DNA from: Halogeometricum pallidum JCM 14848
GTDB taxonomy: Archaea; Halobacteriota; Halobacteria; Halobacteriales; Haloferacaceae
Reading direction: 5' to 3'
Length of the DNA: 37,883 nt
Assembly (NCBI RefSeq): GCF_000337095.1
Contig: NZ_AOIV01000019.1
Span: 1 to 37,883 of the forward strand
Shown: positions 22,974-30,211 of the stretch, piece by piece
Layout: each line of letters opens with the position of its first letter
Numbering within the stretch: the stretch's first letter is position 1
The notes under the pieces: model-generated
Databases searched by the model: none
Seen by the model: the letters and a program-made list of their open reading frames with translations, nothing else
Told to the model about the DNA's origin: nothing
Translations under genes and position numbers: made by a program

Positions 22974-24318
22974 GCTCTCCCCCTCCGATGGTCAGGATGC
23001 GGTAGTCGCCCTCGCCGCACCACTCTTCGAGGACGCCGCGCCCGTCGACGAGGAGGGCGTCTTCGAGACGCCCCCAGTCGATATCGGCGAACTCCTCGTG
23101 GGCGGTGACGAGGACGACGGCGTCGACGTCCTCGTCGGGAATATCCGCCGCGTCGACGGGCGTCGCACCGAACGACTCGATGTCGTCGATGAGCGGGTCG
23201 GCGGCGAGCACCTTCGCGCCGCGCGCGTTCAGACCGTCGATAACGCCGGCGGCGGGCGTCTTGCGCGTCTCCTCGACGCCGGCGCGGTACGTGATTCCGA
23301 GCACCGCGACGGTCGACCCGTCTACGTCGCGCCCCATGGCTTCCAGACCGTCCGCGAGCAGGTGGACGGTGTGGGCGGGCATCGAGTCGTTCACCTCACG
23401 GGCCGTCCGGAGGAGCGGGGTGTCGGTCTCGGTGTACTTCATGATGAAGTACGGGTAGAACGGGATGCAGTGGCCGCCGACACCCGGCCCGGGCGTGTGG
23501 ATGTCACAGAACGGCTGGGTGTTCGCCGCGTCGATGGCCTCGTTGACGTCGATGCCGAGGTCGCGGTCGAGTTTGGCGAGTTCGTTCGCCAGCGCGATGT
23601 TCACGTCGCGGTAGACGCCCTCGAACAGTTTCACCGCCTCGGCGGACGTCGCGTCCGCCATCGGCACGATGTCGTTCGAGGTAAGTTCGCCGTAGATGAG
23701 TTCGGCCGCACGACCGCTCTCCTCGTCCGCGCCGCCGACGACTTTCGGGTACGCGCCGCGGATGTCCTTCAGTGCCCGTCCGCTGGACGTCCGTTCGGGG
23801 CAGAAGGCGACGCCGAACTCGTCCTCGTCGAGGCCGCTGACCGACGAGAGGAGGGGGCGGACGCGCCCTTCGCACGTTCCGGGCGGGACGGTGCACTCGA
23901 CGACGACGAGGTCGCCCTTCGAGAGGCCCTCGCCGATGCCCTCGACGGCGGCGGTCAGCGCCCCGAGGTCCGGTTCGTGGTCGTCCGTCAGCGGCGTTGG
24001 GACGATGACGACGTGTACCGCCGCCGCCTCGGCGGCCTCGGCGGCCGACGTGGTGGCGCGGAGGCGTCCCGCCTCGACCTGTTCGGCGACGAGGTCCGAG
24101 AGGCCTGGTTCGCCCTTGATGTGCGAGCGGCCCTCGTTGATACCGTCGACGACGCCTTGGTCGACGTCGACGCCGATGACCTCGCCCGCCGTCTCGGCGT
24201 ACACCGCGGCCAGCGGGAGTCCCATCTTTCCGAGGCCGACGACGGAGACGGGCACCTCGCCGGACGTGAACGCCCGTCGCTGCTCGTCGGGGTCCCGTTG
24301 GCTGTCGTACAGACCCAT
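22957..24318 (-). CDS. UDP-N-acetyl-hexosamine 6-dehydrogenase (WbpA-like)
   Basis: A 453-residue nucleotide-sugar dehydrogenase. VSVVGLGKMGLPLAAVYA is the NAD-binding motif (residues about 24-42), VECTVPPGTCEGRV and AFCPERTSSGRAL are family signatures, and the catalytic cysteine is C284 in GPGVGGHCIPFYPYF. GGHCIPxxP is the form seen in UDP-GlcNAc and UDP-ManNAc dehydrogenases rather than UDP-glucose dehydrogenases. It would oxidise UDP-GlcNAc to UDP-GlcNAcA, the substrate of the Gfo/Idh enzyme at 7229-8227. ATG at 24318 is preferred to GTG at 24321. It heads a leftward unit with a GT2 and the DUF1616 protein. Confidence 0.88.
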   Translation of the reverse strand: MGLYDSQRDPDEQRRAFTSGEVPVSVVGLGKMGLPLAAVYAETAGEVIGVDVDQGVVDGINEGRSHIKGEPGLSDLVAEQVEAGRLRATTSAAEAAEAAAVHVVIVPTPLTDDHEPDLGALTAAVEGIGEGLSKGDLVVVECTVPPGTCEGRVRPLLSSVSGLDEDEFGVAFCPERTSSGRALKDIRGAYPKVVGGADEESGRAAELIYGELTSNDIVPMADATSAEAVKLFEGVYRDVNIALANELAKLDRDLGIDVNEAIDAANTQPFCDIHTPGPGVGGHCIPFYPYFIMKYTETDTPLLRTAREVNDSMPAHTVHLLADGLEAMGRDVDGSTVAVLGITYRAGVEETRKTPAAGVIDGLNARGAKVLAADPLIDDIESFGATPVDAADIPDEDVDAVVLVTAHEEFADIDWGRLEDALLVDGRGVLEEWCGEGDYRILTIGGGERVSGQ

Positions 24319-24687
24319 CACTGTCGTGTCGACCCCCGACTGTGCGATGTCGCTGTCTGCGCGTCGACTGTCGTTCCCTCGATTCCGTGGAGAGCGCGGA
24401 TCGGAGGGACCGCCTGTGTAACTTCGAGCATATGTGTTCGACCGCCGAGTAGAAAGGCGGCTCTACCGAGCGAACTGGGAGGTACGTACTTTGTTATACG
24501 GTACTTGGCCCTGTCAATCGAATACTAATTCGCCGTATACGGCGGTTTAGGGACCGTCTCGACCGCGTGTGAATCTCTAGCGATTCCGTCCGTCGAAGCG
24601 CACGAAGCATGGGAACGTACCGCACCTTTCGGAGTCGGTTCGACCGCGTCGACGACCGGCGACCGAGCGGGTTCGACTCTCGGGCGA
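24319..24687 (-). promoter_or_regulatory. Intergenic region before the WbpA-like gene
   Basis: About 370 bases without a recognised gene. The stretch 24480-24545 is AT-richer. CGCCGTATACGGCG at 24531-24544 is a perfect 14-base palindrome, and on the minus strand ACCGTATAACAAAG (24488-24501) is a TATA-like element between it and the gene. The palindrome could be an operator or the tail of the NRAMP-like gene's transcript. Confidence 0.35.
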
Positions 24688-26016
24688 CTACGCGCCGGTG
24701 GTGACTTCCTCGCGGGCGTACTTCGCGACGAGGCCGAGCGTTGCGGCGGCCACAAGGACGGCGAACGCGAGGACGGCTCCCGAGAGGGGGCGGAGGCCGC
24801 CGGCGACCTGCCCGCGGACGAAGTTCGCCGCCAGCGCACCCGAGACGAGGAAGATGGCGACGCCGCCGACGTTGGCGAGCGTCGGGGTCGGTTCGGGCAC
24901 CGCCGGGGAGTTCAGGAGGTAGAGCACGAGGGCGAGAGCGAACGGCGTCCCGACGGTGCCGAGAGCGAGGACGAGGACGAGCTGGCCGAGCACCTCGCCG
25001 CCGATGAACGCCCCCGGCGCCGACAGCAGTGCGAACCCGGCCAAGAGGGCGCGGTAGCGACCGTCCTCGACCGTCGTCCCCCAGCCGAGTTTGTCCGCGA
25101 GAAGAAACGGCGGCGCCACGGTGTTCCCGCCGAGCGTCGACACCGCCGCGCCGCCGAGTCCGAGGAGGAACAGCCACTCCGCGCCCGGGCCGACGAGCGG
25201 ACCCAGCGCCTTCGCGGCGCCCACCGTCGTGAGGTTCGGGTCCGTCAGCACGCCCGCCGCGACGAGGAAGACGGCGACGCTGTAGACGCCGAACGCGACG
25301 AGCATCGAGGCGACCACGTCGAACGTGGCGAGGTCGTACTCCGACGCCGTCCACCCGCGCGCCCGCATCGTGTACGAGTGCATCGTGACGAGCGTGACGT
25401 GCACCGCGCCGCCGAGGATGCCGGCGGCCAGCACCGCGCTCCCCGCGGGCAGCGTCGGAACGAGTCCGTCGAGCGCCCGCCCGGCGTCGACAGGAACGAC
25501 GAACAGCGAGGAGACGAACGAGACGACGACGCCGGCCACGAGCAGTTTCGCCCCGAGTTCGAGGAAGCCGTAACCCCGACCCGCGAGTCCGACCGCGAGC
25601 ACCACCGCCCACGCGACGCCGCAGACTCCCGCCCCCACGCCCGTAATCGTCGCCGTGACGGCGGCCAGCGTGTTCAGTATCACCACCTGTGCGGCCCCGG
25701 CGGCCACGACGACGTCGGCGACGAGCAGCCACGCCCACCGCTCGCCGAGGCGCGCCTCCACGACGGCGACGATTCCTCGCTCGGTCAGCAGACCGAGCCG
25801 CATGGCGAGGTACTGCGCGACCGTCCCCGCCGCGGCCGAGAGCACGACCACCCACAGCAGCGCGTAATCGAAGGCCGCCCCGGCGGTAACGAGACTCGCT
25901 ATCGTCGCCGGCCCGGCCGCGACGGCCCCGACGACCCACGAGGGCCCCATCCCCGACAGTCGCTCGCGCACGCCCGCCAGTCGATTCCCCGTGGCCGTCG
26001 GCGTCGCATCGCTCAT
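24688..26016 (-). CDS. NRAMP-superfamily transporter lacking the metal-binding motifs
   Basis: A 442-residue protein with about 11 helices. MGPSWVVGAVAAGPATIASLVTAGAAFDYALLWVVVLS resembles NRAMP helix 1 in layout, but the DPGN metal site is replaced by residues around SLVTAG, and helix 6 reads VTLVTMHSYTMRARG where MPHN would stand. Both metal-ligand motifs are therefore missing. GGNTVAPPFLLADKLGW and PAVPEPTPTLANVGG complete the fold. It has its own promoter with the palindrome shared with the tenA promoter (26023-26033), and directly follows the TenA/symporter operon. This suggests uptake of a thiamine-related compound rather than a metal ion. That is inference; a magnesium or other cation role remains possible. 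Confidence 0.75.
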   Translation of the reverse strand: MSDATPTATGNRLAGVRERLSGMGPSWVVGAVAAGPATIASLVTAGAAFDYALLWVVVLSAAAGTVAQYLAMRLGLLTERGIVAVVEARLGERWAWLLVADVVVAAGAAQVVILNTLAAVTATITGVGAGVCGVAWAVVLAVGLAGRGYGFLELGAKLLVAGVVVSFVSSLFVVPVDAGRALDGLVPTLPAGSAVLAAGILGGAVHVTLVTMHSYTMRARGWTASEYDLATFDVVASMLVAFGVYSVAVFLVAAGVLTDPNLTTVGAAKALGPLVGPGAEWLFLLGLGGAAVSTLGGNTVAPPFLLADKLGWGTTVEDGRYRALLAGFALLSAPGAFIGGEVLGQLVLVLALGTVGTPFALALVLYLLNSPAVPEPTPTLANVGGVAIFLVSGALAANFVRGQVAGGLRPLSGAVLAFAVLVAAATLGLVAKYAREEVTTGA

Positions 26017-26022
26017 ATTCGA

Positions 26023-26044
26023 GTGATATCACCGACGAATAAAT
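26023..26044 (-). promoter_or_regulatory. TATA box and GGTGATATCAC palindrome before the NRAMP-like gene
   Basis: On the minus strand ATTTATTC (26044-26037) is a TATA box centred about 25 bases before the ATG at 26016, predicting a leaderless transcript. GGTGATATCAC (26033-26023) sits between box and start. The same core occurs at the same place in the tenA promoter at 29241-29261. Confidence 0.65.
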
Positions 26045-26063
26045 GGGTGTCGTGTCGGCGTCG

Positions 26064-26198
26064 CTACGCTCGGTCGCGTCGTCGGAGTCGAACGGTCCCA
26101 CGGGCGACGGCGTACGCCTCGAAACAGAACACGCAGAAGACGCCGAGCAGGCTCCCCCAGAGCAGCGCTCCGAAGACGAGTGGGCCGACGGCGCTCAT
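26064..26198 (-). CDS. 44-residue single-span membrane protein coupled to the symporter
   Basis: A small gene found by reading past the symporter stop. Its ATG (26198-26196) overlaps the symporter TGA as ATGA. The product is 44 residues: a hydrophobic helix of about 25 residues (PLVFGALLWGSLLGVFCVFC), then FEAYAVA and a strongly basic tail ending RLRRRDRA. This is the shape of the small accessory proteins encoded beside SSS-family symporters in many prokaryotes, so it may stabilise or regulate the transporter. That assignment rests on size, topology and coupling only. The operator and promoter of the next gene begin about 20 bases after its stop. Confidence 0.65.
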   Translation of the reverse strand: MSAVGPLVFGALLWGSLLGVFCVFCFEAYAVARGTVRLRRRDRA

Positions 26199-27784
26199 CG
26201 GTCGTCCCCCCTCTCCGAGGCGGGACCGCTCGGTTCGGTCGATTCGCTCGGTTCGTCCGGATTGCTCGGGGTCCCGCCATCGGTGACGGGTCGGTCGAGG
26301 CGACGAATCTCCCGCGAGAGACGGTCGAGATCGAACTCACTGCTCGACAGGCGCGCCGCAACGACGGCCGACGCCGAGGAGACGAGGAACGCGCCGGCGA
26401 ACGGCAGGAGGTAGGTCGGGTCGGGGGCGGGGAGGAGGCCGCCGAGGAGCGAGTCCGCCGCGCCGTGCAGGCCGAACGGGAACGGGAAGAACGCGCTCCC
26501 GACGGCGAGGCCGAGGAGGGCGCTCACCAGCGCACCCCGACCGGAGAGGCCGCCGGTGAACAGTCCGTAGACGAGGGGGATGCCGACGGCGGCGCCGAGG
26601 AGGTCCGCGACGAAGAACAGGCTGAGGACGCTCCGCGCGCGGAGGCTCACCGCGACGGCGGCGACGGCGACGACGACGGTGACGAGTCGGGCGGCGAGGC
26701 GGAGCGTCCGGTCGTCCGGGTCGTCCATCGCCCGAGGGAGGTCGGCGGTGACGAGGCTCGACAAGGCGTTGAACAGCGAGTCGGCCGTGCTCGTCACGAG
26801 CAGGAGGGCGAGGAGGAGGACGCCGAGCACCAACCACTCCGAGAAGGCTCCGTCCAAGAGGACGAAGAAGGCGACGCCGGCGTTGTACTCCGCCCCCTGC
26901 GTGAGGACTCCGGAGTTCCCGACGGCGACGACTCCCAACAGCGTCGCGAGAAGCAGGATGAACCCGTTGGCGACGGTGGCGACCCGGAAGCTCCGCTCGA
27001 CCGTCTCGGAGTCGTCCCCGGCGTAGATGCGCTGCCACCACGTCTGGTTGAGGAGTTCCGCGCCGAGCACCGCGAACACCAGCGCCGCGCCGAACCGCAG
27101 ACCGGGGACGTAGCCGGGGTCTAAGAGCGCCGGGTTCGCGTCCGCGATGCCGTCGTAGACGGCGCCGGTTCCGCCGAGTGCGAACAGCAGGGCCGCGACG
27201 CTCCCGACGAGGAGCGGGAGGACGACGAACAGTTGCACCGCGTCGGTGGCGATGCTCGCTCGAAGGCCGCCGTAGGCCGTATAGAGGAGGACGAACCCGG
27301 CGACGAGCGTTGCCGTCTGCCACTGGGGGACGCCGGCGACGTAGTGGAACGCCAGCGAGATGCCGGTCAACTCGGCGGCGAGGAAGACGAACATGTACAG
27401 GGCGCTGATGACGACGACGAACGCGTACATCGCGCCGCCGTAGCGCGCGTAGGCGTACTCGGTCAGCGAGTGGCCCTCCGGAATCAACTCCCGTATCCGC
27501 GGGCCGAGTCGGGAGTACGCGAGCATCGGCGCGGCCTCGCCGAGTCCGTAGCCGACGGCCGCGGCGATACCGTACAGCGCGCCCGCTTCCGGGGCCGACA
27601 GCAGTATCCACACGCCCATCACCGAGGCGACGAGCGTGGCGCTCAACTGCCCCTCGTTCGCGGCGCCGCGGGCGGTGATGAGGTCCTCGACGGAGCCGAC
27701 GCGCCCCCGTGAGAACCACAGCCCCAGCCCCGCGAAGACGGCGAGCGTGACGACGGTGAGACCGAGGGCGAGAGCCGAACTCAC
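26195..27784 (-). CDS. SSS-family sodium:solute symporter
   Basis: A 529-residue transporter with about 13 helices. FSRGRVGSVEDLITARGAANEG opens the family pattern, HSLTEYAYARYGGAMYAF and YTAYGGLRASIATDAVQLFVVLP are typical of helices 3-6, and LLLVTSTADSLFNALSSLVTAD contains the sodium-site Ser/Thr and Asp of helix 8. A 60-residue acidic tail faces the cytoplasm. The GTG start at 27784 gives a GTGA overlap with the upstream tenA gene; a second GTG one codon earlier is equally possible. The context (two TenA enzymes, shared operator) points to a thiamine-degradation pyrimidine or related compound as substrate, by inference. Confidence 0.87.
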   Translation of the reverse strand: MSSALALGLTVVTLAVFAGLGLWFSRGRVGSVEDLITARGAANEGQLSATLVASVMGVWILLSAPEAGALYGIAAAVGYGLGEAAPMLAYSRLGPRIRELIPEGHSLTEYAYARYGGAMYAFVVVISALYMFVFLAAELTGISLAFHYVAGVPQWQTATLVAGFVLLYTAYGGLRASIATDAVQLFVVLPLLVGSVAALLFALGGTGAVYDGIADANPALLDPGYVPGLRFGAALVFAVLGAELLNQTWWQRIYAGDDSETVERSFRVATVANGFILLLATLLGVVAVGNSGVLTQGAEYNAGVAFFVLLDGAFSEWLVLGVLLLALLLVTSTADSLFNALSSLVTADLPRAMDDPDDRTLRLAARLVTVVVAVAAVAVSLRARSVLSLFFVADLLGAAVGIPLVYGLFTGGLSGRGALVSALLGLAVGSAFFPFPFGLHGAADSLLGGLLPAPDPTYLLPFAGAFLVSSASAVVAARLSSSEFDLDRLSREIRRLDRPVTDGGTPSNPDEPSESTEPSGPASERGDDR

Positions 27785-28545
27785 CACTCCGTCTCACCCC
27801 GGTCCGACGGTTCGTCCGCGTAGGCGGCGTCGAAGAAGTCGACTTCCAGCGAGACGGTCCGCCCGAAGAGCCGTTCGAGGCGACGCCGACGCCGGGGGGA
27901 GGCGGCGGCGCCCTCACGGTCGAGTTCCGCGCGGAGCCACCCCACGAACGTTCTGAACTCGTCGTTCGCGTGGAGGTGCACCCACTCGTCGAGGTAGAAC
28001 CGCTCGGGGGACCCGTCGGCGACGGCCGCCGCCCACGCCTCGTACGTCCACTCGGCGGGCAGGAGCACGGCCAGTCGCTCGGCGTACCCGCCCTGCCGGG
28101 CGGCCCGTTCGATGAGGTCCTCGAACGCCAGCGTCGTCGGCGTCCGGTGCGGGTCCTCGTACGTCTCCCGCGGGACGCCCAGCGCCTCGAAGGAGCGCTC
28201 GAAGTAGTCGTTCTCCTCCGCGGTGAGCGTCCCGAGGAACGTCGACAGCCGGCGTTTCGACGCCATCGTCGGCGCGTCGCCCACGGCGTGCCCGACGAGG
28301 CCGACGAGCGACCCGAGGAACGCGTAATCTTGGACCAGATACCGCCGGAACGCCGCGTCGTTCAGTTCGCCGGACCCGAGTTCCCGGGTGAATCGGTGGG
28401 TGGTCGCCGCCGTCCATTCGGGCTCCGAGCGCTCCCGGAGCCAGTCGGTGAAGCGGGCGTCCGTCGCCGTCTCGGCGTACGCGTCGAACGAGTCGGGGAC
28501 CGCCTGTCCGCCGGCCTCCCCCTCGTTTGCCTCCTCCTCGCTCAC
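27781..28545 (-). CDS. TenA-family protein, glutamate class
   Basis: A 254-residue all-helical TenA/heme-oxygenase-like protein. Similarity begins near residue 15 (DSFDAYAETATDARFTDWL) with FRRYLVQDYAFLGSLVGLVGHAV and MASKRRLSTFLGTLTAEENDYFERSFEALGV. Where classical TenA has the nucleophile LLPCxW, this has LLPAEWTYEAW: the cysteine is missing and a glutamate occupies the W-x-x-E-A pattern of the TenA_E class. TenA_E enzymes have been reported to act on formylated or free aminopyrimidines from damaged thiamine. The C-terminus retains SLEVDFFDAAYADE. The GTG start at 28545 overlaps the first tenA stop as GTGA, and the acidic first 15 residues are consistent with this. Confidence 0.82.
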   Translation of the reverse strand: MSEEEANEGEAGGQAVPDSFDAYAETATDARFTDWLRERSEPEWTAATTHRFTRELGSGELNDAAFRRYLVQDYAFLGSLVGLVGHAVGDAPTMASKRRLSTFLGTLTAEENDYFERSFEALGVPRETYEDPHRTPTTLAFEDLIERAARQGGYAERLAVLLPAEWTYEAWAAAVADGSPERFYLDEWVHLHANDEFRTFVGWLRAELDREGAAASPRRRRRLERLFGRTVSLEVDFFDAAYADEPSDRGETEW

Positions 28546-29207
28546 AGCTCCCACCCCTCCTGTCGCCACGCGGCGTCCCAGAAGCGGTACTCGTAGCGCC
28601 CCGACTCGTAGAACAGGTCGCGGTAGCGCTCGCGTTCGGCGTCGCTCGCGTCCCGCGCCACGTCGTCCATCAGTTCCTTGCACCACGTCGTGAGTTCGGT
28701 GAACTCCGCGCCCGCGTAGGTGTCTATCCACTCGGCGTACCGCTCGTCGTCGGGTTTCCCGCGTTCCCGCAGTCGCTCGGCCGTCTCGTTGAACCCCCAC
28801 ATGCAGGGGAGGAGGACGGCCACTAAGTCGCCGAACGACCCCGTCGCGGCGGTGCGGACGAGAAAGTCCGTGTACGCCCGCGTCGTCGGCGACGCCTCGG
28901 TCGCCTCCAGTTCCGCCTCGGAGATGCCGAACTCCGCGGCGTACGCGCGATGGAGGTCCATCTCGGTGTTGATGGTCGAGTCCAGCAGTTCCGCGAACGT
29001 GCCCATCCGCGCCACGTCTGGCGCCGTCCCCGCCCCGTAGGCGAACACGCGCGCGTAGTCGACGAGGTAGACGTAGTCCTGTCGCACCCAGTACTCGAAC
29101 GGGTCGGTCGAGAGCGTTCCCGCTCCCAACCGCTCGACCATCGGGTGCCCCTCGATGGCGTCCCAGAGCGGGTCCGCCACCGTCGACAGTTCGTCGGTGA
29201 AGCTCAT
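28542..29207 (-). CDS. tenA: TenA aminopyrimidine aminohydrolase, cysteine class
   Basis: A 221-residue protein of normal TenA length. Motifs: FEYWVRQDYVYLVDYARVFAYG near the N-terminus, EMDLHRAYAAEFGIS, then LVAVLLPCMWGFNETAERL with the catalytic cysteine, and YEYRFWDAAWRQEGW near the end with the catalytic acid region. Classical TenA hydrolyses aminomethyl-pyrimidine from degraded thiamine to hydroxymethylpyrimidine for reuse. The ATG at 29207 is chosen because an upstream in-frame ATG at 29240 would lie before the transcript start predicted from the TATA box at 29254-29261. It heads a four-gene overlapping chain. Confidence 0.9.
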   Translation of the reverse strand: MSFTDELSTVADPLWDAIEGHPMVERLGAGTLSTDPFEYWVRQDYVYLVDYARVFAYGAGTAPDVARMGTFAELLDSTINTEMDLHRAYAAEFGISEAELEATEASPTTRAYTDFLVRTAATGSFGDLVAVLLPCMWGFNETAERLRERGKPDDERYAEWIDTYAGAEFTELTTWCKELMDDVARDASDAERERYRDLFYESGRYEYRFWDAAWRQEGWEL

Positions 29208-29240
29208 GTCTGCCCGTACTGGTTCGGCGAGGATATACAT

Positions 29241-29261
29241 TGGTGATATCACCAAATAATA
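29241..29261 (-). promoter_or_regulatory. TATA box and TGGTGATATCACCA palindrome before tenA
   Basis: TGGTGATATCACCA (29241-29254) is a perfect 14-base palindrome. On the minus strand TATTATTT (29261-29254) abuts it and is a TATA box predicting a transcript start near 29232, about 25 bases before the tenA ATG. A repressor on the palindrome would block this promoter. The core is repeated before the NRAMP-like gene. Confidence 0.65.
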
Positions 29262-29417
29262 GTCCGGTCGGGAGGGAGAGCATGAATCCGCGGCGTGACT
29301 CCCCGCCACCGGGAACCGCTCTCGTACTTCCCATCCGGCGGGAACGACGGCCGCCAGTCATAGAGTCGGCGCTCGTAGTGGATGTGGAGCACGAATCGCT
29401 CCCGGAGGAGTACCACG

Positions 29418-29633
29418 ATGGACGATAACGCGACGCACGACGCCGAGAAACGCCCGCCGAGAGAGACGAGTCGCCCGGACCGGCCGCCGGGACTGACGGC
29501 CGAGATAGTCCTCCCGCGGGACGGGACGGCCGAGTGTACGCTGTTCCCGCCGGATTCCGTCGGTTTCGAGCGGACGACGACGTGGATAACCGCCGAGGAG
29601 GGGTCGTTCGTCAGCCTGCGCGAGATGATGTGA
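29418..29633 (+). CDS. Small DUF7511-type haloarchaeal protein
   Basis: A 71-residue acidic protein. The first 30 residues are polar (MDDNATHDAEKRPPRE). The conserved part is LTAEIVLPRDGTAECTLFPPDSVGFERTTTWITAEEGSFVSLREMM; ECTLxPP and TTWITAxxGSFVxL are the hallmark of the small haloarchaeal DUF7511 family. GGAGGAG lies about 7 bases before the ATG. Function is unknown. It stands alone between the tenA promoter and transposon remnants. Confidence 0.7.
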   Translation: MDDNATHDAEKRPPRETSRPDRPPGLTAEIVLPRDGTAECTLFPPDSVGFERTTTWITAEEGSFVSLREMM

Positions 29634-29689
29634 GCGATGTCGCGTCGGACGCCCCGCGGACACCCCGCGGGCGTCGACCGGTTGAACTC

Positions 29690-29765
29690 AGCAGAACTCA
29701 AGGTAGAGCCCCCGGCCTCAAGGAGCGACCGAAACGTAGCGAAGGGAGCGAGTAGGCCGGAGCGG
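29690..29765 (+). mobile_element. Remnant of an IS1341-type element end
   Basis: CCGGCCT (29712-29718) pairs with AGGCCGG (29754-29760), enclosing CTCAAGGAGCGACC and GGGAGCGAGTAGG phrases. Sequences of this style commonly end haloarchaeal IS1341-type (tnpB) elements. No tnpB body precedes it, so it is at most a decayed terminus. Assignment is from memory of such ends and is tentative. Confidence 0.35.
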
Positions 29766-29848
29766 AAACTGACATGGTGCGACACAACCGGCGCACTCCG
29801 ACCGACCGACTCCCGAATATCCAAGTACCGCCCACCCTCCTCTGAAGT

Positions 29849-30031
29849 ATGGACGTGCGTCGAACCGCCGTCGCGAAACTCGCCGTTTCCGACGAGCAAC
29901 GCGACGCACTCCACCGAACCGCCGAGCAATACCTATACTGCGCGAACCAAACCGCCGACTATTGTTGGTCCGACACCTCGTACACCGAGTGCAAGACCAA
30001 CAAACGGCAGGTTCGGTCTGCCCGGATATAG
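29849..30031 (+). pseudogene. Truncated tnpB (N-terminal fragment)
   Basis: A 60-codon frame starting MDVRRTAVAKLAVSDEQRDA and continuing with QYLYCANQTADYCWSDTSY and TECKTNKRQV. This is the N-terminal part of a haloarchaeal IS1341-type TnpB, normally about 410-430 residues. Similarity stops around codon 54 and the frame closes at a TAG; the RuvC and zinc-ribbon parts are absent downstream. It differs in sequence from the intact TnpB at 32485, so it comes from another element. Confidence 0.75.
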
Positions 30032-30211
30032 TCCTACTACTGGCAAAATACCGCCTCCCGACCGAGTTCTCCACTACCGATTCCGAACCCGCGTGCAGAG
30101 ATGTGAGACACGTCAGTTCTGCGTCGAATCGCGCTTCCCGCTCCCGAACCGGTTCGACCACGTTCGCTCGTCGTTCAGCGTCAAAAAAGCGCGAAACGGT
30201 GTCGGAATTCG
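30032..30211. other. Gap between tnpB remnant and antiporter
   Basis: No gene seen. It contains the T-tract terminator of the leftward antiporter gene and otherwise unrecognised sequence that may be decayed transposon DNA. Confidence 0.4.
30177..30190 (-). terminator. T-tract terminator of the antiporter gene
   Basis: Six consecutive T residues on the minus strand (30188-30183) lie about 25 bases beyond the antiporter stop codon. Archaeal polymerase terminates at such T-runs. Confidence 0.55.

Follow-up and report, generated by a model that had tools for sequence, protein, structure and literature searches.

The window analysed here, 37,883 nucleotides (nt) of Halogeometricum pallidum JCM 14848 (NZ_AOIV01000019.1, positions 1 to 37,883), carries a minus-strand operon with the gene order tenA - tenA2 - sodium:solute symporter - 44-amino-acid (aa) open reading frame (ORF), tenA being first, and next to it a gene for an NRAMP-like protein (Table 1). 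A palindrome is repeated in the promoters of tenA and of the NRAMP-like gene, and is very probably an off-switch of this thiamine-salvage operon, predicted to be worked by the regulator ThiR.

An earlier, sequence-only reading had described an 11-base core common to both promoters, and this is indeed present: as GGTGATATCAC on the minus strand at 26023-26033 (-17 to -7 relative to the NRAMP-like ATG), and as GGTGATATCACC contained in the palindrome before tenA. The perfectly palindromic part on the NRAMP-like side is the 10 bp GTGATATCAC at 26023-26032. The tenA palindrome, previously given as 14 bases at 29241-29254, is perfect as stated, but extends to 16 bp (29240-29255). The identical placement claimed for the two sites is not supported. 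As at thiC and thi4, the NRAMP-like site is downstream of its TATA-like box (here TTTATT); it ends 6 nt 5' of the ATG. In all three promoters the box precedes the operator, and the ATG follows closely enough for leaderless transcription. The tenA site ends 32 nt 5' of its ATG, upstream of the likely TATA box, a conserved GTATAT that follows it immediately and would suit a leaderless transcript. Repression by occlusion is plausible with both geometries.

Table 1. Features of the thiamine-salvage locus and its putative regulator. Positions are those of the window unless a locus is named; offsets are relative to the ATG.
Feature	Position	Strand	Evidence and remarks
ThiR-type operator (predicted) of tenA operon	29240..29255		Perfect 16-bp palindrome TTGGTGATATCACCAA, -48..-33 from tenA ATG
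ThiR-type operator (predicted) of NRAMP-like gene	26022..26033		GGTGATATCACT (minus strand), -17..-6 from ATG
Likely leaderless TATA box of tenA, GTATAT (~-32)	29233..29238	-	Sequence and conservation in relatives; predicted start
Alternative tenA TATA box, TATTATTT	29254-29261		Directly upstream of operator
TATA box of NRAMP-like gene, TTTATT	26038..26043	-	Predicted from sequence
tenA, TenA_C type (thiaminase II / aminopyrimidine aminohydrolase)	28542..29207	-	PF03070; active-site Cys in LLPCMW
tenA2, TenA_E type, probable N-formyl-4-amino-5-aminomethyl-2-methylpyrimidine (FAMP) amidohydrolase	27781..28545	-	PF03070; Cys replaced by Glu, LLPAEW
Sodium:solute symporter, ThiV-like	26195..27787	-	PF00474; no operator of its own, inside operon
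44-aa hydrophobic ORF, last operon gene	26064..26198	-	Overlaps symporter stop codon; translation
NRAMP-like transporter, distinct haloarchaeal clade without metal ligands	24688..26016	-	PF01566, E 7.8e-66
ThiR	L005 1087-1995		HTH_3 23-52, ThiN 139-297

In the 4.38-Mb genome GTGATATCAC occurs six times, two of these copies being the ones 3.2 kb apart upstream of ATGs in the window. The other four (within coding sequences on C11 and C17, beside tRNA-Phe on C27, and before an SDR gene on C37) are in unrelated places and were not counted as regulon members. The copy on C37 (6163-6172; L004, 3664-3673) stands directly 5' of the ATG of the SDR-family gene, and could be due to chance or mark an extra regulon member. 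The more permissive RGTGRTAWCACY is found at six places, four of them the promoters of thiC (site GGTGGTATCACT), thi4 (AGTGGTAACACT), tenA, and the NRAMP-like gene; the other two are inside the coding sequences of a nucleotidyltransferase and a lipoate-ligase-like gene. The reversed control of RGTGRTAWCACY has no matches in the genome; the random distribution named in advance as grounds for rejecting the operator is not what is seen. A further pattern, RGTRRTAWYACYNRRT, matches only at thiC, tenA, and thi4, and its control nowhere. Both patterns were composed after the sites had been seen, and tests on held-out promoters consequently weigh more.

For these, 80 tenA relatives were collected, 76 of them haloarchaeal, yielding 66 non-redundant upstream regions for motif training. 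Expectation-maximisation gave TTGGTtATATaACCAA as the palindromic consensus, with a log-likelihood of 261 (shuffles reached 22-38). When symmetry was not imposed it gave aTATaACCaaGTTATA, with a log-likelihood of 475 (about 55 shuffled), so the full operator probably reaches past the 12-mer, with outer half-sites. The site is thus present, not absent, upstream of tenA orthologues, at about 66 non-redundant loci. Trained on tenA promoters only and applied at a threshold score above 10 to promoters held out, the matrix picks out 77% of thiC promoters (n = 13) and 78% of thi4 promoters (n = 23), against 2% of symporter upstream regions (n = 49; in-operon, negative control) and 2.6% of unrelated promoters (n = 312); related promoters are not independent, and Fisher values are for this reason indicative only. 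In the window, the tenA operator scores 17.5 and is in the same register as in other haloarchaeal tenA promoters; the NRAMP-like operator scores 15.6, and its position is kept in orthologues from Haladaptatus, Halomicrococcus, and the congener G001. The exact 12-mer GGTGATATCACC was searched for in 60 relatives, and none of the places where it turned up had a thiamine gene in the flank examined. Its failure to find thiamine genes there reflects the degeneracy of the operator, and a refutation drawn from the exact 12-mer alone would be wrong. The exact 11-mer is this species' spelling of a degenerate operator of the GGT-K-R-TA-Y-M-ACC type, not a general motif.

The genome encodes one protein with a ThiN domain, a 302-aa HTH_3 + ThiN protein (C41:122525-123433) whose gene adjoins thi4. 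It lacks the Met-bearing STMGW/GTMDW segment found in ThiDN-type sequences (L055, L081, L014, L022, L121). A ThiN protein without this segment is reportedly a non-catalytic regulator, ThiR. In 15 relatives a gene for a homologue of it and tenA form a divergent pair, and at L101 such a gene is paired in this way with thiC; the operator is in the common intergenic region. No match to the thiamine pyrophosphate (TPP) riboswitch model of Rfam was obtained in the window (24000-30200) or in L109, L118, and L144; the window's low-scoring hits to CRISPR-repeat and group-II models fell short of the gathering scores and were dismissed. ThiR has been published as a regulator of archaeal thiamine genes (Rodionov 2017; Hwang 2017), as cited in PMC12029414, where the title of the latter speaks of transcriptional repressors.

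We consider it highly probable that both palindromes are ThiR operators, through which ThiR would shut off the tenA operon, the NRAMP-like gene, thiC, and thi4. The regulator, encoded away from the window beside thi4, combines an N-terminal HTH with a C-terminal ligand-binding ThiN domain, and we infer that it is the protein bound to the site and that its ligand is thiamine phosphate. When thiamine phosphates are plentiful, ThiR would bind the palindrome, overlapping or adjoining the TATA/start region, and keep TBP/TFB or polymerase from acting there, so that all four targets are off; when they fall, the site would be freed and salvage, import, and synthesis switched on. That a single regulator serves the two promoters had already been proposed from the sequence, and ThiR had been raised as a possible candidate; the recurrence of the site at thiC and thi4 here and in relatives, in tenA promoters across haloarchaea, and at promoters common to ThiR genes supports both points well. 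The sequence-only interpretation is supported, with corrections: a longer palindrome, differing placement, and a system that had already been described.

Several observations weigh against this reading. The thiE-thiM-thiD operon (L144, 1465-1480; C37) has a weak, half-conserved site, with a score of 7.6, that overlaps the start codon, and the thiR gene itself has no operator site in this genome; pathway coverage is therefore incomplete. Between this genome's ThiR and the homologues encoded opposite tenA, identity is only about 40%, and that the site is the published Halobacteria ThiR motif is something we infer. Nor is the second operator constant in the genus: it is strong in the congener G001, but in G003 and G004 it is missing, and the NRAMP-like gene comes directly after the symporter.

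The alternatives to control by ThiR can be judged by where else the site occurs. Coincidence of two identical palindromes might be suggested by the four exact GTGATATCAC copies at unrelated places, but is extremely improbable given the genome-wide enrichment at thi promoters, and is refuted by the tens of species that keep the site at fixed positions. NRAMP genes are common targets of MntR/DtxR regulators, and with one NRAMP-like target here the palindrome might be bound by another regulator, such as a metal-responsive repressor of the DtxR/MntR type. This is very unlikely: across haloarchaea thiC, thi4, and tenA all have this site, which coincides with ThiR genes and is absent from the promoters of distant NRAMP homologues (L209, L210). 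The direction of control is a separate matter. The tenA palindrome, at -48 to -33 and upstream of the likely leaderless TATA box, is in a typical activator position too, so that ThiR could conceivably activate, or the tenA site work with a different geometry; we think this improbable, since the other three promoters have the site between TATA box and start, a repressor position, and ThiR is reported to be a repressor.

The ligands of the NRAMP metal site are Asp, Asn, and Met (PMC5230734), the first two within DPGN of TM1 and the Met within MPH of TM6. Aligned to DraNramp, the protein of the window has GPAT in place of DPGN and HVT in place of MPH, and all 43 members of its clade have GPA(T/S) and H(I/V)T, with Gly, Thr/Ser, and His at the positions of Asp, Asn, and Met. 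The LeuT-type fold appears retained: the AlphaFold model (pLDDT 82.8) has as its best PDB match 6d91, DraNramp (Z 45.8, root-mean-square deviation 2.4, 380 aligned). Of the 60 relatives, 28 have a member of the clade (about 55-100% identity), which is distinct from the other NRAMP homologues of these genomes, at about 29% identity. Two of these distant homologues (L209, L210; 29% identity) also lack the canonical DPGN and MPH, having GPGT and VVGY; more than one NRAMP group may have altered ligands, and ligand loss alone is for this reason no proof of a thiamine substrate.

The promoter of the NRAMP-like gene itself scores above 10 at 22 of 43 loci, and has a site at 8 of the 18 without tenA or symporter in the flank examined. 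At six loci (L211, L215-L219) the operator is the only or nearly the only site in 12 kb, and no other thiamine gene was found there; at L213 it lies between the NRAMP-like gene and a divergent thiD, and at L220, where the gene is beside thiR, a symporter, and thiD, it is in front of thiR. In five symporter-less loci (L014, L019, L024, L039, L044) the NRAMP-like gene directly follows tenA or tenA2. Its presence gave no signal when compared with absence of thiC (6 of 13 with thiC, 8 of 17 without), and a partial literature search found no link between NRAMP and thiamine pyrimidine. Operator and ligand loss together lead to the prediction of a thiamine-vitamer transporter with an NRAMP fold, and a transporter of thiamine or a pyrimidine vitamer would be the most economical reading. 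We lean, with some reserve, toward the fuller proposal that this clade dropped metal binding and came to import, under the control of ThiR, either thiamine or a thiamine pyrimidine, whether 4-amino-5-hydroxymethyl-2-methylpyrimidine (HMP), 4-amino-5-aminomethyl-2-methylpyrimidine (AmMP), or FAMP. That the site is ThiR's while the protein still transports metal (Mn/Mg), supplying thiamine-diphosphate enzymes or being co-regulated for some other reason, is possible though doubtful: both sequence and fold put it in the NRAMP family, and one of the high-ranking structural matches is EleNRMT, a Mg transporter related to NRAMP, but the metal ligands are replaced throughout the clade, the gene comes straight after tenA or tenA2 at the symporter-less loci, and the protein is far below the cut-off of the metal-transporter models of NCBIfam.

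The remaining genes of the operon fit salvage of thiamine pyrimidines. TenA scores 183.9 bits with TIGR04306 of NCBIfam (cut-off 130), and its Cys is present in 83 of 83 orthologues; tenA2 orthologues have Glu at this position in 55 of 55, nearly all within an LxPxEW motif, the TenA_E class being as defined in PMC5635689. These adjacent genes (27781-29207) form a FAMP salvage pair conserved in haloarchaea, whose products together would convert FAMP to AmMP and AmMP to HMP. The archaeal TenA_E sequences recovered in PMC10470507 are largely haloarchaeal. The symporter is a probable pyrimidine or thiamine importer, and the 44-aa ORF, for which a scan covering most of its length gave no family match, possibly a small accessory subunit of it. 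In Haladaptatus (L019 and L020, 2003-2948, minus strand) an acetamidase/formamidase-family gene near tenA has an operator-like TAGGTAGTACTATTCA at -59, and might encode a further FAMP deformylase. Elsewhere in the window is a TnpB/Cas12f-like protein (PF07282; 32485-33804).

Regulator and operator are a known system, ThiR, described in 2017. The newer part, and one that specialists may find surprising, is that this regulon would take in the NRAMP-like clade, which in many haloarchaea carries the operator even at a distance from other thiamine genes. A complete salvage cassette for thiamine pyrimidines (TenA_C, TenA_E, symporter, and NRAMP-like transporter) is tied to one known archaeal repressor, and the operator offers a separate, genome-wide way to approach the function of a clade that annotation pipelines would call metal transporters. 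Because PMC10470507 asks which transporters import FAMP and AmMP, the symporter and the NRAMP-like protein are testable candidates. If the prediction is true, an NRAMP member carries a vitamin precursor, and there is a candidate answer to the question of how FAMP and AmMP enter cells.

Compared with the ThiR regulon (Rodionov et al. 2017 J Bacteriol 199:e00743-16; Hwang et al. 2017 J Bacteriol 199:e00810-16), the HTH-ThiN regulator, the palindromic operator at thiC and thi4, whose promoters are of the leaderless type, the inclusion of transport and salvage genes, and the lack of a riboswitch are alike; the site spelling is species-specific here, and the operator on the NRAMP-like gene would be a difference. 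The TPP riboswitch also controls thiamine genes, in bacteria and some archaea, but as RNA, whereas here a DNA operator is predicted and no riboswitch matches the loci tested. The sodium:HMP symporter ThiV / SSSP of Candidatus Pelagibacter (PMC11452348) shares the SSF family, a pyrimidine-salvage context, and, by prediction, thiamine control; the haloarchaeal protein, whose substrate is likewise a prediction, is in an operon with two TenA enzymes. The Cys-type and Glu-type TenA enzymes occur together as in the TenA_C/TenA_E salvage pair (PMC5635689, PMC10470507), here as adjacent genes with one common ThiR-type promoter. To the SLC11/NRAMP metal transporters (DraNramp, EcoDMT) the NRAMP-like protein is similar in fold, at 20-23% identity, but its whole clade is without the metal-binding Asp, Asn, and Met, and its context is thiamine, not metal.

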